A DNA stretch of 46,522 bases from Deltaproteobacteria bacterium (GTDB lineage: Bacteria; Bdellovibrionota; Bacteriovoracia; Bacteriovoracales; Bacteriovoracaceae): positions 1 to 46,522 of the forward strand of contig SBGE01000150.1 of NCBI GenBank assembly GCA_006226755.1, written 5' to 3'. Position numbers and translations under genes: made by a program. The notes under the pieces are model-generated. The model was not told the DNA's origin. It saw only the letters and a list, made by a program, of their open reading frames with translations, and did not search any database. Below are positions 15,142 to 22,726 of this stretch, piece by piece. Within the stretch, counting starts at the first letter, position 1; every line of letters starts with the position of its first letter.

Positions 15142-15792
15142 ATGAATCTTACAACTATGAAAAAAACGAAAAATGGAATCATCCTTGGTCTTTTCCTTCT
15201 TGTCTCGGCCATTACAACTTCTTGTGGTGACGGATCAGATGGAAGAAACATTCAAATCCCAGGAGTTGACGGACCAACCGTAACTCTTAATCAAGACAAT
15301 GTTCTCATCGCAATGGTATTCGAAAATATCCAACTCGATGGTGGACTACGTTATCCGGTACCAAAGTACCCGAACTCTTACATCGAAGTTTCACCACACC
15401 TTCAATCAGGTGGAACAATGATGGCCGTTTCAATTTCTCTAGATGACGTCTTTAATGGCGATCTACAAAGACTTGATCCTCAAGCTCTTCCTGGTGGTAG
15501 ACCACTTCCAGGTGTTCCTTCAGGATCACTTCCTGCCATCGCTTTCTCAATTGAGAAATTTTATGGAATGGGATTCTATATTGGTAAATCAGTTTTCGGT
15601 CTTTTCGTACCTATCAAAGGACTTGGAATTGGTAACTCTGTTGTGACTGCAAGATTTTACTCTTCAGGATCAAGAGTTGGTAACATCTCTCTAGTTGGTG
15701 AAGACACTAACGGTGAGAACTCAGGTATTCTCTTGATGCTTGATCTAGGTAAGTACAAGAGCAAACTTAAGAAACTTGCAAAAAGATACTAA
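15142..15792 (+). CDS. Predicted lipoprotein of unknown function
   Basis: 216 aa. The N-terminus has a basic start, a hydrophobic stretch at about 12-24 and TTSC with Cys28, so it is probably lipid-anchored, though Thr at -3 is not the usual lipobox residue. The mature part is Gly/Pro-rich with beta-like strands and a basic tail (KYKSKLKKLAKR). Either the ATG at 15142 or the one at 15157 could be used; the first fits the GAGAG spacing. Tandem terminators follow directly and a stable hairpin precedes it, which suggests a single-gene, well-expressed transcript. No family recognised. Confidence 0.8.
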   Translation: MNLTTMKKTKNGIILGLFLLVSAITTSCGDGSDGRNIQIPGVDGPTVTLNQDNVLIAMVFENIQLDGGLRYPVPKYPNSYIEVSPHLQSGGTMMAVSISLDDVFNGDLQRLDPQALPGGRPLPGVPSGSLPAIAFSIEKFYGMGFYIGKSVFGLFVPIKGLGIGNSVVTARFYSSGSRVGNISLVGEDTNGENSGILLMLDLGKYKSKLKKLAKRY

Positions 15793-15826: not shown

Positions 15827-15854
15827 AGGCCCCATCCTCAGGATGGGGCTTTTT
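15827..15854 (+). terminator. Main terminator after the 15142 lipoprotein gene
   Basis: GCCCCATCC (15829-15837) pairs with GGATGGGGC (15841-15849) around the loop TCA, followed by TTTTT. The U run abuts the stop codon of the convergent minus-strand gene. No good T run on the minus side. Confidence 0.85.
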
Positions 15855-17517
15855 AATTTTCAGGCTTTTCAGCTTTCTTGTTTTTGGATCTTTTTTTCTT
15901 TTTCTTCTTTTTCTTTTCGTCGCTTTTCTTTTTCAATGCTTCCCAATTGTCATCAAGAACAACAATCTGCCATTTGTGATTGGTCGAAGCATCGTTTCTA
16001 AGCTCACAGTAAACAGCTCGCATGTCACCATCAATATCATTGATAACCCAGAACCTCTCGCCCAGAATTGCGACGATATTGTAGAGGCCTTTATGGAAGT
16101 TATGATCAATCAAGTACTTCAAGAAGACTAATCTTACTGGCTCACGTTTAGTCCCCAAGTAATCATAAGTTCTCATATCTATCAGGGCCTGTCTGGTCTG
16201 ATAGGCCTTCAAAGGTCTCTCAAGTACTTTCAACATCTCTGGAGTAAAGACAAAATCACCTTTGAGCTCATCCATATTGACTGAAATCTCAGGAAGTTTT
16301 GATTCTCTTTGTTCTCGTACCGCTTTTGCAAATGCACTTTCCTTCGGCGTCGGTGTTGGAGACGGCGTAGGTGTCGGTGTAGGCGTCGGCGTCGGTGACG
16401 GTGTAGGCGTCGGCGTCGGCGTTGGCGTTGGTGACGGCGTAGGAGTCGGTGTTGGAGTTGCCGTAGGTTTTGGTGTTGGAGTTGGGGTTGGATCAAATAA
16501 TGACCACTCCAAACCTTTCTCATCAAATTCTCTTAGAGCACCAGGAAGAAAAAGATCACCTTGAATATATGCCGTTTTGGATTTTGCCAGACGGTCAAAA
16601 ACAAGTTTGAAAAGAACGGGTAATTGATTAAACTCCCTCTCTCTCGTTTGAAAAAGCTCTACATATCTTTCCAAGCATCTTTTTCCAGAACCGGACTTAT
16701 CCAAAATGTTCATGACGTTCGATTTCATCAAGATATCGACAACATTAGCAACATTCGACAAACCATAGAGGTCATCCGTTTCATTACAAACGGCTTCCAT
16801 CAACTGAAGATCGTTACTACACATTGACTGAAGTGACTCTTCGAGGTCCTGCTTTTCAAGGTCGGAACAATTCTTGCCTTCTTCTTTACACCACTCTCTG
16901 ACTCTGAGGACCGCAATATCATCGCCTTTGCCAGCAAGAAATCCTTGCATCCACTGAGCTGTTTCTCCACCAGAAAGCTTCTTCAGCTGTAAATCTTGTT
17001 TGCTGAATTTTTGACGTACTCTGGTAAGAAATTTTTTCATGTCATCTGTTTGAGGACGACATTTATTCAGCGTTTTATTCCAGTCGACTGGACATGCTTG
17101 ATAGTTCAACCCTAAAGAGTAGAGCGTTTTATGAGCTGACTTCAATCCTTCGTATAGATAACTCAATGTCACCAATCTGAAGAGGTATCGAATATACTTG
17201 ATATTCTTGTTTAGAAAGTAGTCGGGACATTTTGACTTATGCGGGAGTTCGACCATCCACATATGACCAAGACGATAAATTTCTTCTTCAAAATAACCAT
17301 TCAAAAAATTGTCATAATAATCAGAATCTATGAATTTTAGTTCACCTGTTACAGTATCAAAACGATAAGAAGGATCGTAAGGTCCATGATACTCACCAAA
17401 TTCTTTTTCACCGAGATAAAACTGGTCGTAATAATCATTTGAAGATGACCATGCCACTGATGTCACCAAAAGCGAACAAATCAAACTTAATGTTGAAATG
17501 AACTTACTAACCTTCAA
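15853..17517 (-). CDS. Secreted protein with Pro-Thr linker and Lys-rich tail
   Basis: 554 aa. A signal peptide (about 1-25) is followed by a Cys-containing N-terminal domain to about 340, a low-complexity Pro-Thr tract at 343-391, a C-terminal domain (about 394-530), and a tail dominated by Lys. The layout of two folded domains on a stiff Pro-Thr linker is usual for exported proteins that work in or beyond the cell wall; the domains match nothing I recognise. Start is TTG at 17517 with AGAGGGG seven to ten bases upstream. It begins 22 bases after dctM and is probably the fifth gene of the TRAP operon. Confidence 0.8.
   Translation of the reverse strand: MKVSKFISTLSLICSLLVTSVAWSSSNDYYDQFYLGEKEFGEYHGPYDPSYRFDTVTGELKFIDSDYYDNFLNGYFEEEIYRLGHMWMVELPHKSKCPDYFLNKNIKYIRYLFRLVTLSYLYEGLKSAHKTLYSLGLNYQACPVDWNKTLNKCRPQTDDMKKFLTRVRQKFSKQDLQLKKLSGGETAQWMQGFLAGKGDDIAVLRVREWCKEEGKNCSDLEKQDLEESLQSMCSNDLQLMEAVCNETDDLYGLSNVANVVDILMKSNVMNILDKSGSGKRCLERYVELFQTREREFNQLPVLFKLVFDRLAKSKTAYIQGDLFLPGALREFDEKGLEWSLFDPTPTPTPKPTATPTPTPTPSPTPTPTPTPTPSPTPTPTPTPTPSPTPTPKESAFAKAVREQRESKLPEISVNMDELKGDFVFTPEMLKVLERPLKAYQTRQALIDMRTYDYLGTKREPVRLVFLKYLIDHNFHKGLYNIVAILGERFWVINDIDGDMRAVYCELRNDASTNHKWQIVVLDDNWEALKKKSDEKKKKKKKKRSKNKKAEKPEN
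16345..16491 (-). repeat. Pro-Thr coding repeat, 6-base unit with 36-base period
   Basis: About 49 codons of alternating Pro and Thr, with Ser replacing Thr every 12 residues (three times), so the DNA has a 6-base period and a 36-base higher-order period. Codons vary between CCG, CCA and CCT, so units are not identical. Confidence 0.9.
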
Positions 17518-17539: not shown

Positions 17540-18802
17540 CTACTCTGTCATCCACAAACTCAGCGCAGGTACATAGGTGATGATTGCCAATGCAACCAGT
17601 AGCAGGATGAGATACGGAAAGGATGCCCTGTAAAGCTCAGTCACTGGCTTCTTAAACCGGAAACTTGAGATAAACAGATTGATACCAACCGGAGGAGTAA
17701 TATATCCAATTTCAAGGTTGGTAAGAAATATAATTGCCAAGTGGATTGGATGTACTCCAAAATCTTCAGCGATTGGTGTAATCAAAGGTACAACAACAAT
17801 GATGGCCGAAAAGATATCCATCATGGCACCAACAATCAGCAGAAAGATATTCAAGAACAACAAGAATGAGTACTTGTTGGTCAAAAACTTTCTCATGAAC
17901 TCAAGAATTTGCATTGGAATTTCTTCATCAACCAAAAAGTTTGTCAGGCCAAGAGCACAGCAAAGAATCAAGAGAATTCCACCAACAAGTGACATGGAAT
18001 CGAGAATCACTCTAGGAATATCTTTAGTCAGATGAAGATCTTTATAAACAAAACATTCAATAATTAAGATATAGAAAGCAGTGAAGGCAGCTGCTTCAGA
18101 AGCAGTTGTGAAGCCACCATAAATACCGACGAGAACACCAACAGGAAGTAAAGCTTCAAAAAAACTTCCTTTGAATGCCGCAACCAGTTCCTGAGAGTCA
18201 AATTTCTTACGAACTCCCCCCGCTTGTCCGTTATAAACAGACCAGGCAGAAAGAATGACGATCAAGAGAATTCCTGGAATAACTCCAGCTAGAAAAAGCT
18301 TATCGATATCAACCTTCGCAACTAGTCCATAAAGAATGATTGGAAGAGAAGGAGGGAACAATAATCCCAATGAGCCAGAAGTAGTTATCAATCCAAGTGA
18401 AAACTTCTCAGTATAACCTTCATTTTTCAAAATTGGATAAAGAAGACCGCCAAGAGCGATAATCGTCACCCCACTGGCACCAGTGAAGGCCGTAAAGAAA
18501 GCACAGATCACCAATGAAACAATGGCGACACCACCCGGTAACCATCCAAGAGCGGCTTCAGCCAAACGTAAAAGTCTTTTTGGAGATCCACTTTCTGCCA
18601 TCATATAACCAGCGAAAGTAAAAAGAGGGATTGTCAAAAGAGTAGGAGCAGAACTGATACGATATATCTCAACTGCAACAGCTGAACTTTCAACATCAGA
18701 AAAAGCAAAGGCGACCAAGGCGGCCAACCCCATAATGATAAAAAGAGGTGTTCCAATAATGGCCAGGAGTAAAACTCCTAGAAACGCTAAAGCTTCCATC
18801 AA
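17540..18802 (-). CDS. dctM: TRAP transporter large permease, DctM
   Basis: 420 aa with about twelve hydrophobic segments. The opening EALAFLGVLLLAIIGTPLF, the GLLFPPSLPIILYG segment and the C-terminal LEIGYITPPVGINLF are characteristic of the DctM family. It carries the ion-coupled transport path for solute delivered by DctP. Its ATG overlaps the stop of dctQ by four bases. As elsewhere in TRAP systems, Na+ is the likely driving ion, which would suit a marine host, but that is inference. Confidence 0.94.
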   Translation of the reverse strand: MMEALAFLGVLLLAIIGTPLFIIMGLAALVAFAFSDVESSAVAVEIYRISSAPTLLTIPLFTFAGYMMAESGSPKRLLRLAEAALGWLPGGVAIVSLVICAFFTAFTGASGVTIIALGGLLYPILKNEGYTEKFSLGLITTSGSLGLLFPPSLPIILYGLVAKVDIDKLFLAGVIPGILLIVILSAWSVYNGQAGGVRKKFDSQELVAAFKGSFFEALLPVGVLVGIYGGFTTASEAAAFTAFYILIIECFVYKDLHLTKDIPRVILDSMSLVGGILLILCCALGLTNFLVDEEIPMQILEFMRKFLTNKYSFLLFLNIFLLIVGAMMDIFSAIIVVVPLITPIAEDFGVHPIHLAIIFLTNLEIGYITPPVGINLFISSFRFKKPVTELYRASFPYLILLLVALAIITYVPALSLWMTE

Positions 18803-19308
18803 TGTCCCTCCTTGAGAATTTTCTCACCCATGAAAGAACCTACAAACAGCCAGAAGAAGCGATAGGCAATCAGACCAAAACCAAAAGGAATAATTCCCAC
18901 CAAATATCCAGATGGGATTCCCCAAAAAACAGGCTTTCCATATTTAAGCTCGACGATCATAAAGTTTTTACTAGCATCCATAAGCCAGATCAAAGTACCA
19001 AATGATGCAAGAGCGATGACTCTTTGAATCCATATAGAAACATCGGCTTTCCCTTTGGACTCAAGCCATTTTCCAATGATATCGATTCCAATATGTGTTC
19101 CCCTACCTGTGGCAAGTACTCCACCAAGAAAAGTCGACATGAAAACGAGGTGTCTGACGAAAGGTTCAGACCAATGAATCGAAGTTGAAAACCATCTAAG
19201 AACGATGGACAGGACACTTATTGAAAGCATTCCGAAGACACAAAAAACCAAACCCCATGAACTAAGTTTTTCAATTAATTCGTCTATACCCTTCAGAATT
19301 GCTTTCAA
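18799..19308 (-). CDS. dctQ: TRAP transporter small permease, DctQ
   Basis: 169 aa with four hydrophobic segments. The FLGGVLATGRGTHIGIDI stretch after the second helix is the DctQ hallmark. It pairs with DctM in the membrane. It lies 15 bases behind dctP and overlaps dctM by four bases. Confidence 0.92.
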   Translation of the reverse strand: MKAILKGIDELIEKLSSWGLVFCVFGMLSISVLSIVLRWFSTSIHWSEPFVRHLVFMSTFLGGVLATGRGTHIGIDIIGKWLESKGKADVSIWIQRVIALASFGTLIWLMDASKNFMIVELKYGKPVFWGIPSGYLVGIIPFGFGLIAYRFFWLFVGSFMGEKILKEGH

Positions 19309-19323
19309 TACGTCATCCTTGAA

Positions 19324-20286
19324 TTAGAGTTTACTGTTTAATTTATCCCAAGCTTCAGAAGTAAAAAGATCACCCTTCAACTTCTTGATGATCTCTGCAC
19401 GAAACTTTTTCGCCAGTTCAACATCTTTATCTGGGAACTTCAGAAACTTGACTCCCATACTTTTGATGGCGGCCAAAGCTTCTTCGTTATCCTTTATATT
19501 ACCAGCATTTACCTTTCCTATGTATTTTGCAGAAATTTCCTGAATGACTTTTTTGTGCTCAGGCTTAACTTTGTCCCAAGACTTTTTGGAAATGAGCATC
19601 GCCCCAGTAGAATAGGCCAAAGGGAAATCAACCAAGTATTTTATTTTGGTATTCCACTGCAATGAAACGATCCCAAGAGGTGGAGCATATGCAGCTTGAA
19701 CGATTCCTGTAGATAGTGAAGAAAGAACGTCTGGTAATGGAAGAGGTACTGAAACCAGATCCATTGCTGAAATCATGGAGCTAACTAATTTGTCACCTTC
19801 CCATGACCAAATTTTCAAACCTTTCAAACTATTCAAACTTGGAGTCTCTACTTGAGAAACAAAGTAAACCATTCCTAGTTCAAAGAATCCCAGATTGTGG
19901 AACTCAGCTTTTTCAAAACCTTTATTAATAAAAGGAGCCATTTCATACATGGTCTTCAGAGCTTTTTCTCTGTCTCCACCAAATGTGAAAGGTACTTCCA
20001 TTACTCTAGCGTTACCGTTGATATCACCAAGTGTTTTTCCAGTGAAAATTCCACCTTGGAGTTGTCCAATTCTCACTTTTCTAAGAACATCCGGCTCATC
20101 CCCTTGCGACCCACCAAAGTAAATTTTCAATTTAACTTTGTTGTCAGTGGCCTTCTTGATTTCTTTTGCCATGGCCTTCAAATTCTTTGCCCAATTTGTT
20201 CCCTCTGGAGCGAGTACACCAACCTTCAAAGTTTGGGCCTGAACAGAGAAAGAAATAAAACACAATAATGTCAGTAGTAGTTTCAT
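19324..20286 (-). CDS. dctP: TRAP transporter substrate-binding protein, DctP family
   Basis: 320 aa periplasmic binding protein. Signal peptide is 1-17 (cut after VQA). LKVGVLAPEGTNWAKNLK opens the first lobe, and the LKGLKIWSWEGDK segment lies near 154-166. In most DctP proteins the residue after GLKI is an Arg that grips the ligand carboxylate; here it is Trp160. DVLSSLSTGIVQAAYAPP matches the second-lobe motif. ATG at 20286 has AAGGA seven bases upstream. It lies 15 bases behind the TatT gene. The ligand may not be a simple carboxylic acid. Confidence 0.92.
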   Translation of the reverse strand: MKLLLTLLCFISFSVQAQTLKVGVLAPEGTNWAKNLKAMAKEIKKATDNKVKLKIYFGGSQGDEPDVLRKVRIGQLQGGIFTGKTLGDINGNARVMEVPFTFGGDREKALKTMYEMAPFINKGFEKAEFHNLGFFELGMVYFVSQVETPSLNSLKGLKIWSWEGDKLVSSMISAMDLVSVPLPLPDVLSSLSTGIVQAAYAPPLGIVSLQWNTKIKYLVDFPLAYSTGAMLISKKSWDKVKPEHKKVIQEISAKYIGKVNAGNIKDNEEALAAIKSMGVKFLKFPDKDVELAKKFRAEIIKKLKGDLFTSEAWDKLNSKL

Positions 20287-20301: not shown

Positions 20302-21282
20302 TTAGAAAAGATCTTTTTCATGTTTCTTGATATATTCAAATCTTTTGATTGCTAGTGTTTGATAAACTCTCATCATGTCCTCTCCAAATGCAGGGTCAGC
20401 CGCAGCTTTGTTTTCAGGCATCCAGATTTTTTGTTTTCGATGAAGCTCAGTAAACTTTTCCAGGTGAAATTTTTGAGAGTTGTACTCACCATCTTCTGAT
20501 TGAGGAATAACATAGAACTGAATGTAAGCGACTCTGACCAACCAATTGTGTGGTTGTTTTTGGATCAGTTTAAGAAAGATCTCTTTACCTTTTTCAGGAT
20601 TACCGCCCAACATGGAAGGTCTTCCCGCTTCATAAGAAGCAAAAAAGATATCACAGGCCCCATAATGAATATCAGGCTTTTTTGAACATACCCAATCAAA
20701 CATTCCCTTGGCGATAGGTAGCTGACTCACAAGAGTCATATTATCTTTTTGAAGATTGATCATACTTGCCAGAGATTGGGCCGTAAAAAGAACAACTTCA
20801 AGATCCCTCATATCGTCATCCATTTTATCTTCAAGAATGCCAACGACTCCTTCTTTATCACTCACAGATTTTTGTAGCATCTGATAAGTCAGACCTTCTT
20901 TTGCCAAATACTGAAGTCCGTAATCCATTGCCTTCGAATAATTCACAACTGCTGCATCTTTATGAACAGACTTGTCTTTTTCAGCATAGAGATCATCGAG
21001 AAAATAAGTTTCATTCACAGCAAACGCATAACCGGCATAGCCCTTGGTTAAAGTTGCCAAAAAGTTCATGTCTCCTGGCTTCAAGCTGAGAAGACCTTCA
21101 GTAAGCATCAAAGTTCCAAGAACTGATTTTTCAAAATTCTCAAAATCATTCTGGGCCTGCATTCCATTTGAGGCCTTATAAAAAATAGGAGAAGTCGTTC
21201 CGATTCCAATTCGCTGAATAAACCCACAGGAAGAAAGTAGAATCGAAATTGCCAACAACATGAGCATCTTGGACCAAGACAT
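20302..21282 (-). CDS. TatT-like lipoprotein, TRAP-associated TPR component
   Basis: 326 aa. Lipoprotein signal with LSSC and Cys19, followed by a helical repeat protein resembling the TRAP transporter TatT family (known from Treponema Tp0956). Landmarks are LLSLKPGDMNFLATLTKGYAGYA, the long helix pairs, and the LGGNPEKGKEIFLKLIQ segment near the C-terminus. TatT trimers bind the DctP partner (TatP) and may pass a ligand to it. I start at the ATG at 21282, which has GGGAG eight bases upstream; a TTG at 21297 is less likely. First gene of the operon. Confidence 0.87.
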   Translation of the reverse strand: MSWSKMLMLLAISILLSSCGFIQRIGIGTTSPIFYKASNGMQAQNDFENFEKSVLGTLMLTEGLLSLKPGDMNFLATLTKGYAGYAFAVNETYFLDDLYAEKDKSVHKDAAVVNYSKAMDYGLQYLAKEGLTYQMLQKSVSDKEGVVGILEDKMDDDMRDLEVVLFTAQSLASMINLQKDNMTLVSQLPIAKGMFDWVCSKKPDIHYGACDIFFASYEAGRPSMLGGNPEKGKEIFLKLIQKQPHNWLVRVAYIQFYVIPQSEDGEYNSQKFHLEKFTELHRKQKIWMPENKAAADPAFGEDMMRVYQTLAIKRFEYIKKHEKDLF

Positions 21283-21329
21283 AGATGAAACTCCCAATAT
21301 AGCGTGTGAATTGTAAATACTAGCTCCCT

Positions 21330-21357
21330 AGTTTACCTACCAATTTCCTATTTTCAA
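21330..21357 (-). promoter_or_regulatory. Predicted promoter of the TPAT operon
   Basis: On the minus strand, TTGAAA (21357-21352) and TAAACT (21335-21330) are 16 bases apart, placing the start of transcription about 40 bases before the TatT ATG. Good match to sigma70-type elements, pattern only. Confidence 0.42.
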
Positions 21358-21641: not shown

Positions 21642-21842
21642 ATGAAGACTCAAAACACAGCTGACACTTCAAAGAACGATGAAATCGTAACTTTGAAAGT
21701 CGTGCGTCGTGGGGTCAGACTCCCTGAGAACGCTGCTTCGAAAAGATTTTCAATGAAGCCAAGCAAGTCACTGGTCAAGATGAAATCTGTAAGACCATTG
21801 GCAGTTGCTAAAATGTTTTCAGGAATTAAAGAGTCTGAGTGA
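21642..21842 (+). CDS. Small basic hypothetical protein, 66 aa
   Basis: Short, Lys/Arg-rich and Cys-free, with a basic core (VVRRGVRLPENAASKRF) and a MKPSKSLVKMKSVRP segment. GAGG at 21633 is five bases from the ATG at 21642, which I prefer to the adjacent ATG at 21639. Codon choice looks like that of real genes nearby. A 66-codon frame on the opposite strand overlaps almost fully, but lacks a comparable ribosome site. The stop is four bases from that of the convergent 21847 gene. Function unknown; a nucleic-acid-binding role would suit the charge but is only a guess. Confidence 0.55.
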   Translation: MKTQNTADTSKNDEIVTLKVVRRGVRLPENAASKRFSMKPSKSLVKMKSVRPLAVAKMFSGIKESE

Positions 21843-21846
21843 TCAA

Positions 21847-22356
21847 TCACCGACGACTATTCTTACTATCACTTGGAGCGAAGCTTGATTGCAAGCTATC
21901 GATGGCTTCTTTTCGAGCTTCCATAAGTTCAGCAATTCTTCTTTCATGAAGAAAGTCCAAATACCTTTTTCTCGCTAGAAACATGTAATTGATATAAGTC
22001 GTTTGAAGAGCTTTCATCTCGCGAAAGCAGAGTTTTCTTTCTTCTACTGAAAGCTTATTGGTCTTTGCCGTTTTACTTTCCGCCCCTTCTGTCAGAATGA
22101 TCGTGGAAAACTCTCCGTTACAAACGCGTTTTTTATGTTCGAAGTATTTTTCAATACTCTCACGATAGCGATCAATATTTTTAAAGAACTTGTCTGCTGG
22201 AAGATCTTTAACTTCTTCAATTTCTTTTTGAATCTTTTTTGTATATTCGAAAGTCGAAGCATAGGTTGTAAGATCCGCCTGATCTCTATTTTGTTCCTGT
22301 GCTTCAGAATATGTCTGAATAAAAAATAGTGCTAGAAAAGCAAAGAGTAATTTCAC
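21847..22356 (-). CDS. Small secreted hypothetical protein
   Basis: 169 aa. Starting from the GTG at 22356 the protein opens with a clean signal peptide (VKLLFAFLALFFIQTYSEAQ). The rest is helical and charged, with two Cys (in RVCNGE and KLCFRE) that could form a disulfide. GGAG lies eight bases before the GTG. The gene begins one base after the YggU stop; the longer upstream frame only overlaps that gene and is not used. No family recognised. Confidence 0.72.
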   Translation of the reverse strand: MKLLFAFLALFFIQTYSEAQEQNRDQADLTTYASTFEYTKKIQKEIEEVKDLPADKFFKNIDRYRESIEKYFEHKKRVCNGEFSTIILTEGAESKTAKTNKLSVEERKLCFREMKALQTTYINYMFLARKRYLDFLHERRIAELMEARKEAIDSLQSSFAPSDSKNSRR

Positions 22357-22357
22357 T

Positions 22358-22726
22358 CTATGAACTCCACTTTTTAATAATAGAGATATAGTAATCGACG
22401 CTCTTATTGTCTGTAAAAACATATCGAATATTGAACTTTTTAAAACGTGATTTCCCTCCCTTATCCAGCTCGATTTGAGAGGGAGATGGTCCGAGCCAGT
22501 GTGATAACGCTTTGGACAGGGCCTTATTGGCCTTGCCTTCGACCGGCTTTTCCTTGATATGAACAATCAATTCACCTTCACTCCCAATGGCTATCTTTTC
22601 AACTTTGGAACCAGGCTTTGCCCAAATTTTCATAGAGAACTGTACTTCACCTTCTGAAGCCTTTACATTGCTGAGTTCGATACCTGAATTTTTTAGTGCT
22701 TGAATAAGAGGGTGAGAATCAGTCAT
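22358..22726 (-). CDS. DUF167 / YggU family protein
   Basis: 122 aa. The KIWAKPGSKVEKI stretch and VEGKANKALSKALSHWLG followed by GGKSRFKKF define the DUF167 (YggU) fold. Members are conserved small proteins of unknown role. I use the ATG at 22726 (GGAG eleven bases upstream), overlapping maf by eight bases; an ATG 75 bases earlier would lie well inside maf. Third gene of the FecR-maf-yggU-secreted protein unit. Confidence 0.82.
   Translation of the reverse strand: MTDSHPLIQALKNSGIELSNVKASEGEVQFSMKIWAKPGSKVEKIAIGSEGELIVHIKEKPVEGKANKALSKALSHWLGPSPSQIELDKGGKSRFKKFNIRYVFTDNKSVDYYISIIKKWSS

Follow-up and report, generated by a model that had tools for sequence, protein, structure and literature searches.

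We identified a gene cluster in a Bacteriovorax-like bacterium, on a window of 46,522 nt (the whole stretch of DNA analysed, in whose positions all coordinates are given), in which genes for TatT, DctP, DctQ, DctM and then a gene here called F follow one another in a single direction. Its features are as follows.

20302..21297, minus strand: TatT lipoprotein, the T component (PF16811, E 4.1e-29)
19324..20286, minus strand: DctP/TatP binding protein of 320 aa, of the Trp class defined below (PF03480, E 1e-33)
18799..19308, minus strand: DctQ, small membrane subunit (PF04290, E 4.2e-16)
17540..18802, minus strand: DctM, large membrane subunit (PF06808, E 4.1e-82)
15853..17517, minus strand: gene F, starting 22 bp after DctM and read from sequence as a secreted 554-aa protein with a Pro/Thr-rich linker
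15827..15851, no strand assigned: terminator-like GC-rich hairpin of 11 pairs directly past gene F (consensus scan only)
21330..21357, minus strand: promoter-like site before TatT (9/12 consensus matches)

DctQ and DctM are encoded by separate genes and are not fused, and DctP, TatT and DctM each match once in the genome of the window. TatT is a predicted lipoprotein, with a lipobox LSSC read in its translation (motif only), and its likely start is the in-frame ATG at 21282. TatT adjoins a DctP-family gene, DctQ and DctM are both present and TatT carries a lipobox, which together are the hallmarks, at the level of sequence, of a TatT-associated TRAP transporter (TPAT). The T-P-Q-M order was found in 71/80 named loci (the best 80 of 272 relatives), the remaining 9 being at contig ends or split, and a loose lipobox pattern, again as a motif only, in 118/133 TatTs. 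The hairpin was listed on the plus strand by the scan, and its stem is near-palindromic. The promoter scan ran at chance level, with 13 sites in the region against 13.2 in shuffles, so that the site before TatT is no evidence by itself.

Secreted-looking proteins with no significant Pfam family flank the cluster at 15142-15792 (plus strand) and 21847-22566 (minus strand), and clusters that by eye seem related to them occur in 30 and 48, respectively, of the 80 named loci (best 80 of 272). A short ORF at 21642-21842 (plus strand), opposite in direction to the cluster, carries the basic motif SMKPSKSLVKMKSVRP, and two other loci (L377 and L381) have short ORFs near the same place that resemble it by eye.

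The DctP protein carries a signal peptide, no lipobox was seen in its sequence, and it scores 250 bits against NCBIfam TRAP_S1. Its AlphaFold2 model (95 sequences, pLDDT 93.9) matches TRAP binding proteins in both Foldseek and VIA searches, among them Tp0957 of Treponema (3u65_A; Foldseek E 1.3e-20; VIA Z 32.8, rmsd 2.6, 301 aligned). Profiles and model together place it in the DctP/SBP_bac_7 family with a predicted bilobal TRAP binding-protein fold. The motif around residue 160 reads GLKIWSWEGD, and the first-pass annotation had proposed that its Trp stands where an Arg that grips the carboxylate of the ligand is expected.

19807..19809, minus strand: Trp160 codon, at the conserved Arg site of the family (read from the DNA; alignments)

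This was confirmed, with an Arg under the Trp in 23/23 HMMER alignments, these being the printed alignments that span residue 160. They cover 14 PDB entries of TRAP structures (4p47, 4pf8, 4n15, 4ln5, 4nn3, 4xfe, 4ng7, 4x04, 4pdh, 4pfr, 4mhf, 4mij, 4p9k and 4p1l), and the queries were this DctP, the profile A2, and three relatives, whole or in fragments. The Arg lies under Trp160 even in 4nn3, although the motif there reads KGQSFR; a one-residue gap falls right after Trp160 in the alignments, with varying placement. Residue 160 belongs to strand 158-161 of the model, and the conserved TRAP Arg has been described as sitting in beta-strand 6 and pointing into the cavity (PMC5812351). Alignments and model together place Trp160 on the strand, and in the alignment column, that the carboxylate-binding Arg of the family occupies, with a presumed cleft geometry, and we equate the site with Arg147 of SiaP on the strength of the published descriptions. 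As aligned, this position holds Trp instead of Arg, and we therefore do not file the protein as a DctP of the carboxylate-clamp type.

We investigated the distribution of this substitution by searching named genome contigs with the patterns FTGKTLG[DE]I and QW[NHQ][TS]K[IV]KY, which exclude the residue-160 motif. The scan gave 272 relatives, of which the best 80 were kept, most being titled Bacteriovorax-like or Bdellovibrionota. Trp160 was present in 80/80 of those kept, and since they were chosen without this motif, the residue is neither a chance occurrence nor a one-off. Adding TatT-anchored loci from the genomes of the phylum to the 80 named loci yielded 143 unique DctPs, comprising 120 with Trp, 18 with Arg and 5 partial sequences that were left out (one shows Arg, and four end before the site); nothing other than Trp or Arg was found at residue 160 among the 138 retained. 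TatT lies in the locus of 117 of the 120 Trp-class DctPs, the other 3 coming from loci truncated where the contig stops. Among the 219 TatT-anchored loci, some of them overlapping, 60 have no DctP in the stretch, and these comprise weak TatT-like relatives, contig ends, split operons and places where DctP is missing. An Arg occupies the site in 32/32 DctPs selected as top scorers of the Pfam model; TatT is present in the locus of 16 of them, and L349, counted among the 16 without it, sits at a contig end beside TatT.

Across the phylum of the window, to which all class counts apply, TatT matches were found in 167/368 genomes and DctP matches in 156/368. A profile of the Trp class (E 1e-60) matches 122/368 genomes, namely 107/129 in the family of the window and 15 in four other families, so that the class is present in five family-level groups; this count is by score and not by residue 160, and one secondary match (G095:C83) is of the Arg type (L350). 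Some genomes, such as G087, contain both the Trp and Arg types. Trp-class DctPs also lie away from TatT in the split operons of L306, L307 and L311, and a lone paralogue in G058 (L384, 2743-3717, minus strand) has no TatT, DctQ or DctM within 6.5 kb; it retains Trp160, Trp162 and Tyr200, but has Asn201. Among plasmids, the DctP queries match annotated TRAP binding proteins and no TatT match was obtained, and no relative was found among viral contigs.

The classes were sorted by residue 160, so that Trp at this site in 120/120 is by construction, and the other positions are independent of the sorting. Three further sites separate the Trp class from the 18 TatT-linked Arg-class sequences.

19801..19803, minus strand: Trp162 codon, the second Trp of the class (Trp in 120/120, against Gln in 18/18 of the Arg class)
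19867..19869, minus strand: Val140 codon (Val in 107 and Ile in 13 of 120, against Arg in 18/18)
19684..19689, minus strand: Tyr200-Ala201 codons (Tyr in 120/120 and Ala in 107/120, against Asp and Asn in 18/18)

Counting residue 160, 14 positions distinguish the two sets at a level of 90% or more in each. Residue 201 of the Trp class is otherwise Ser (7), Gly (3), Ile (2) or Val (1), and Glu-Asn lies opposite Tyr200-Ala201 in the alignment to 4p47. The 32 best Pfam-model DctPs have Arg (28), Gln (3) or Lys (1) at position 140, and Asn in 24 at position 201. Arg127 and Asn187 of SiaP likewise contact the ligand, and on that basis much of the clamp would be gone. The comparison supports the view that Trp160 is accompanied by changes at neighbouring positions of the clamp type. 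That the substitution is instead neutral, or reflects the decay of a protein losing its function, as might be argued from relatives that keep the flanking genes yet lack the TPAT genes, is disfavoured by this conservation, and we regard it as very improbable: Trp160 is found in 80/80 named relatives (best 80 of 272), and Trp162 and Tyr200 in 120/120 unique sequences from five family-level groups.

The lineage-wide change to bulky aromatic residues suggests, on sequence grounds, that oily rather than acidic molecules are moved. Basic residues typical of the class point against a hydrophobic cargo, however, namely Arg94 (119/120; Asp/Asn in the Arg class), Lys214 (111/120; Ala/Gly in the Arg class) and, in the near group, Lys84 (100/105). 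A cargo might accordingly keep a carboxylate or phosphate, as would a fatty acid or lysolipid, with Lys84, Arg94 or Lys214 binding the anion and the Trp/Tyr residues accommodating the hydrophobic portion. Within the family of the window itself Lys84 hardly varies, but it is absent from 15/15 far-family sequences that otherwise share the signature (Val 13, Asn 1, Met 1), and in the lone paralogue L384 position 214 is Leu and position 84 is Arg; we consider this arrangement unlikely, if worth serious attention.

The same aromatic residues could alternatively form, as Trp160, Trp162, Tyr200 and Trp211, a cage for a cation such as a quaternary ammonium or an amine, with Asp165 or Asp186 as the counter-charge. 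Asp165 is present in 120/120 of the Trp class and is Lys, Gln or Ile in the Arg class, and an Arg-less TRAP protein, Csal_0678, is described as binding ethanolamine (PMC4646407). Such a cage seems improbable to us, as Trp211 is common to the Arg class (16/18), Asp186 has a Glu as its counterpart there, and TatT would be left without a role.

We compared the histories of the two soluble components. In the DctP tree (34 Trp rows, 10 Arg rows with TatT and 14 Arg rows labelled as without it), the 34 sampled Trp-class rows form one clade (100/100), which lies beside the 10 TatT-linked Arg rows and 2 others of the Arg type labelled as without TatT; these 46 rows stand apart from the 12 other DctPs (99/98). 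The tree is midpoint-rooted and has three long rows, and the root position is therefore not a result. A tree of TatT, built from 51 of the 133 rows (32 and 19), splits into the same two classes (100/100). Since both trees split alike, the two proteins seem to have diverged together, pair by pair, and the cluster is, judging from its residues and trees, a subclass of TPAT without the usual carboxylate clamp.

The first-pass annotation had gone on to combine Trp160 with the presence of TatT into a case for a non-carboxylate or lipid-like substrate of use to a predator. This interpretation stands in part: the Arg site does carry Trp160 and the clamp-type positions are changed, but neither its argument from TatT nor its predator role was supported. 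TatT also pairs with DctPs of the Arg type, 18 unique TatT-linked DctPs retaining the Arg; TatT is thus not independent evidence of a non-carboxylate ligand, and loss of the Arg does not define all TPATs. The reasoning is weakened further in that Arg loss in TPATs was already published, as Ala in Treponema Tp0957.

A hydrophobic or amphipathic cargo is nonetheless our leading inference from this analysis. Uptake of such molecules is favoured by three published observations: loss of Arg147 in SiaP is reported to destroy high-affinity carboxylate binding (PMC4646407), a hydrophobic TatT pore has been described as aligned with a hydrophobic TatP cleft in Treponema (PMC5812351, PMC4646407), and BstC, a protein of the TatT superfamily, is reported to bind methylsterols (PMC10942540). 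The Arg is given as lacking in 3% of 6142 DctPs, Phe being the commonest replacement (PMC4646407). Under this reading, the TatT lipoprotein would receive a hydrophobic or amphipathic molecule and hand it through its pore to the aromatic-lined cleft of DctP, where Trp160, Trp162 and Tyr200 would pack against it in place of a salt bridge, and DctQM would take it in by ion symport. We lean, by a little over even chances, towards a distinct Trp-class TPAT that carries hydrophobic or amphipathic cargo by way of a TatT pore, an aromatic DctP cleft and DctQM symport. A narrower form, which we hold only tentatively and at less than even chances, is that the class, distributed across the phylum, imports a lipid (a fatty acid, isoprenoid, sterol-like molecule or lysolipid) through the TatT pore and an aromatic DctP cleft free of salt bridges, and that it arose once, with its own TatT, from a carboxylate-binding TPAT of the Arg type. 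Besides the basic residues, the pairing of TatT with Arg-type DctPs, the lone L384 without TatT, DctQ or DctM and the occurrence of BstC without a TRAP partner point against the hydrophobic reading.

We additionally identified losses of the system. Six relatives (L372-L377) keep the flanking genes with the TPAT genes missing at the syntenic place, and one of their genomes (G104) is a single contig that is 98% complete. No DctP match at all was found in these six genomes, and each has one TatT-family match elsewhere. The TPAT is thus dispensable in these relatives. Given this absence from six close relatives and the occurrence of the class beyond the family of the window, in 15 genomes belonging to four other groups of family rank, a role particular to predation is not borne out, and the proposed link of the TPAT to predation is unspecific.

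Gene F was found in 72/80 named loci (best 80 of 272 relatives), in 111/129 genomes of the family of the window and in 112/368 of the phylum, the extra one being a weak match. Across 67 aligned relatives, six of its cysteines (C97, C142, C153, C233, C244 and C281) are each conserved in 66 or more. The window copy has no Pfam family, and with its model (pLDDT 87.8) neither Foldseek at E 0.001 (best 0.24) nor VIA at Z 5 or more (best 4.1) found a match, which does not show a new fold. The gene stays by TatT where DctPQM are elsewhere or missing (L250, L260, L261, L252, L381 and L382), and L372-L377 hold it with no TatT, DctP, DctQ or DctM within 7-9 kb. We considered it as a fifth part of the transporter and rejected this, since F is kept where the TPAT is missing and the Trp-class TPATs of other families lack it; because it survives such losses, its membership in the transport system is doubtful.

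Split and reduced arrangements take several forms. TatT and F occur with no adjoining DctPQM in the six loci just named (L250 to L382), TatT-DctP-F without DctQM in L061, L126, L128 and L191, and TatT alone in L233. DctM lies elsewhere in the genome in G020, G042, G060, G061, G120, G121 and G122 and is in pieces in G059, and no DctP or DctM match was found in G082 (81% complete). In L185, L187, L192, L246, L265 and L275, TatT-family genes have unrelated neighbours and the stretch covered contains no DctP. As such genes occur without DctP, TatT-like proteins may be able to act without TRAP transporters.

The cargo of TPATs was given as still undetermined in PMC10942540 (2024). The paired Trp and Arg classes, at times in one genome, offer a natural before-and-after comparison, through which it can be tested directly which residues change the specificity of a carboxylate binder and what cargo TatT carries. 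Our literature searches on TPAT and TatT did not find the Trp class, the Trp-Trp signature or paired Arg-type TPATs, and no paper joining Bacteriovorax and a TRAP transporter was found among the papers searched. Arg-less TPAT binding proteins are already published.

Canonical DctP-TRAP systems (4p47, SiaP and others) share the fold and the DctQM partners, but have Arg at the clamp site, and TatT is an addition here. The Arg-type TPATs of the same phylum (e.g. L050 and L021) have the same TatT-DctP-DctQ-DctM order, differing in having Arg, Arg, Gln and Asp-Asn at 140, 160, 162 and 200-201 and in forming their own clade for both DctP and TatT. BstC of Methylococcus capsulatus shares the TatT superfamily, and its sterol ligand suggests lipid handling; its partners are described as BstA and BstB, of other families, with no TRAP permease (PMC10942540). 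In the TPAT described from Treponema pallidum (TatT Tp0956, TatP Tp0957 and TatQM), as here, TatT adjoins an Arg-less protein of the DctP family, and the predicted fold of our DctP is that of Tp0957 (3u65_A). The two systems differ in that the Arg site is Ala in Tp0957 as published (PMC4646407, PMC5812351) and Trp here, that Treponema is described as having one tatQM gene (PMC5812351) in place of separate DctQ and DctM, and that the published account gives both Treponema proteins as lipoproteins, whereas the DctP of the window has a signal peptide with no lipobox seen.
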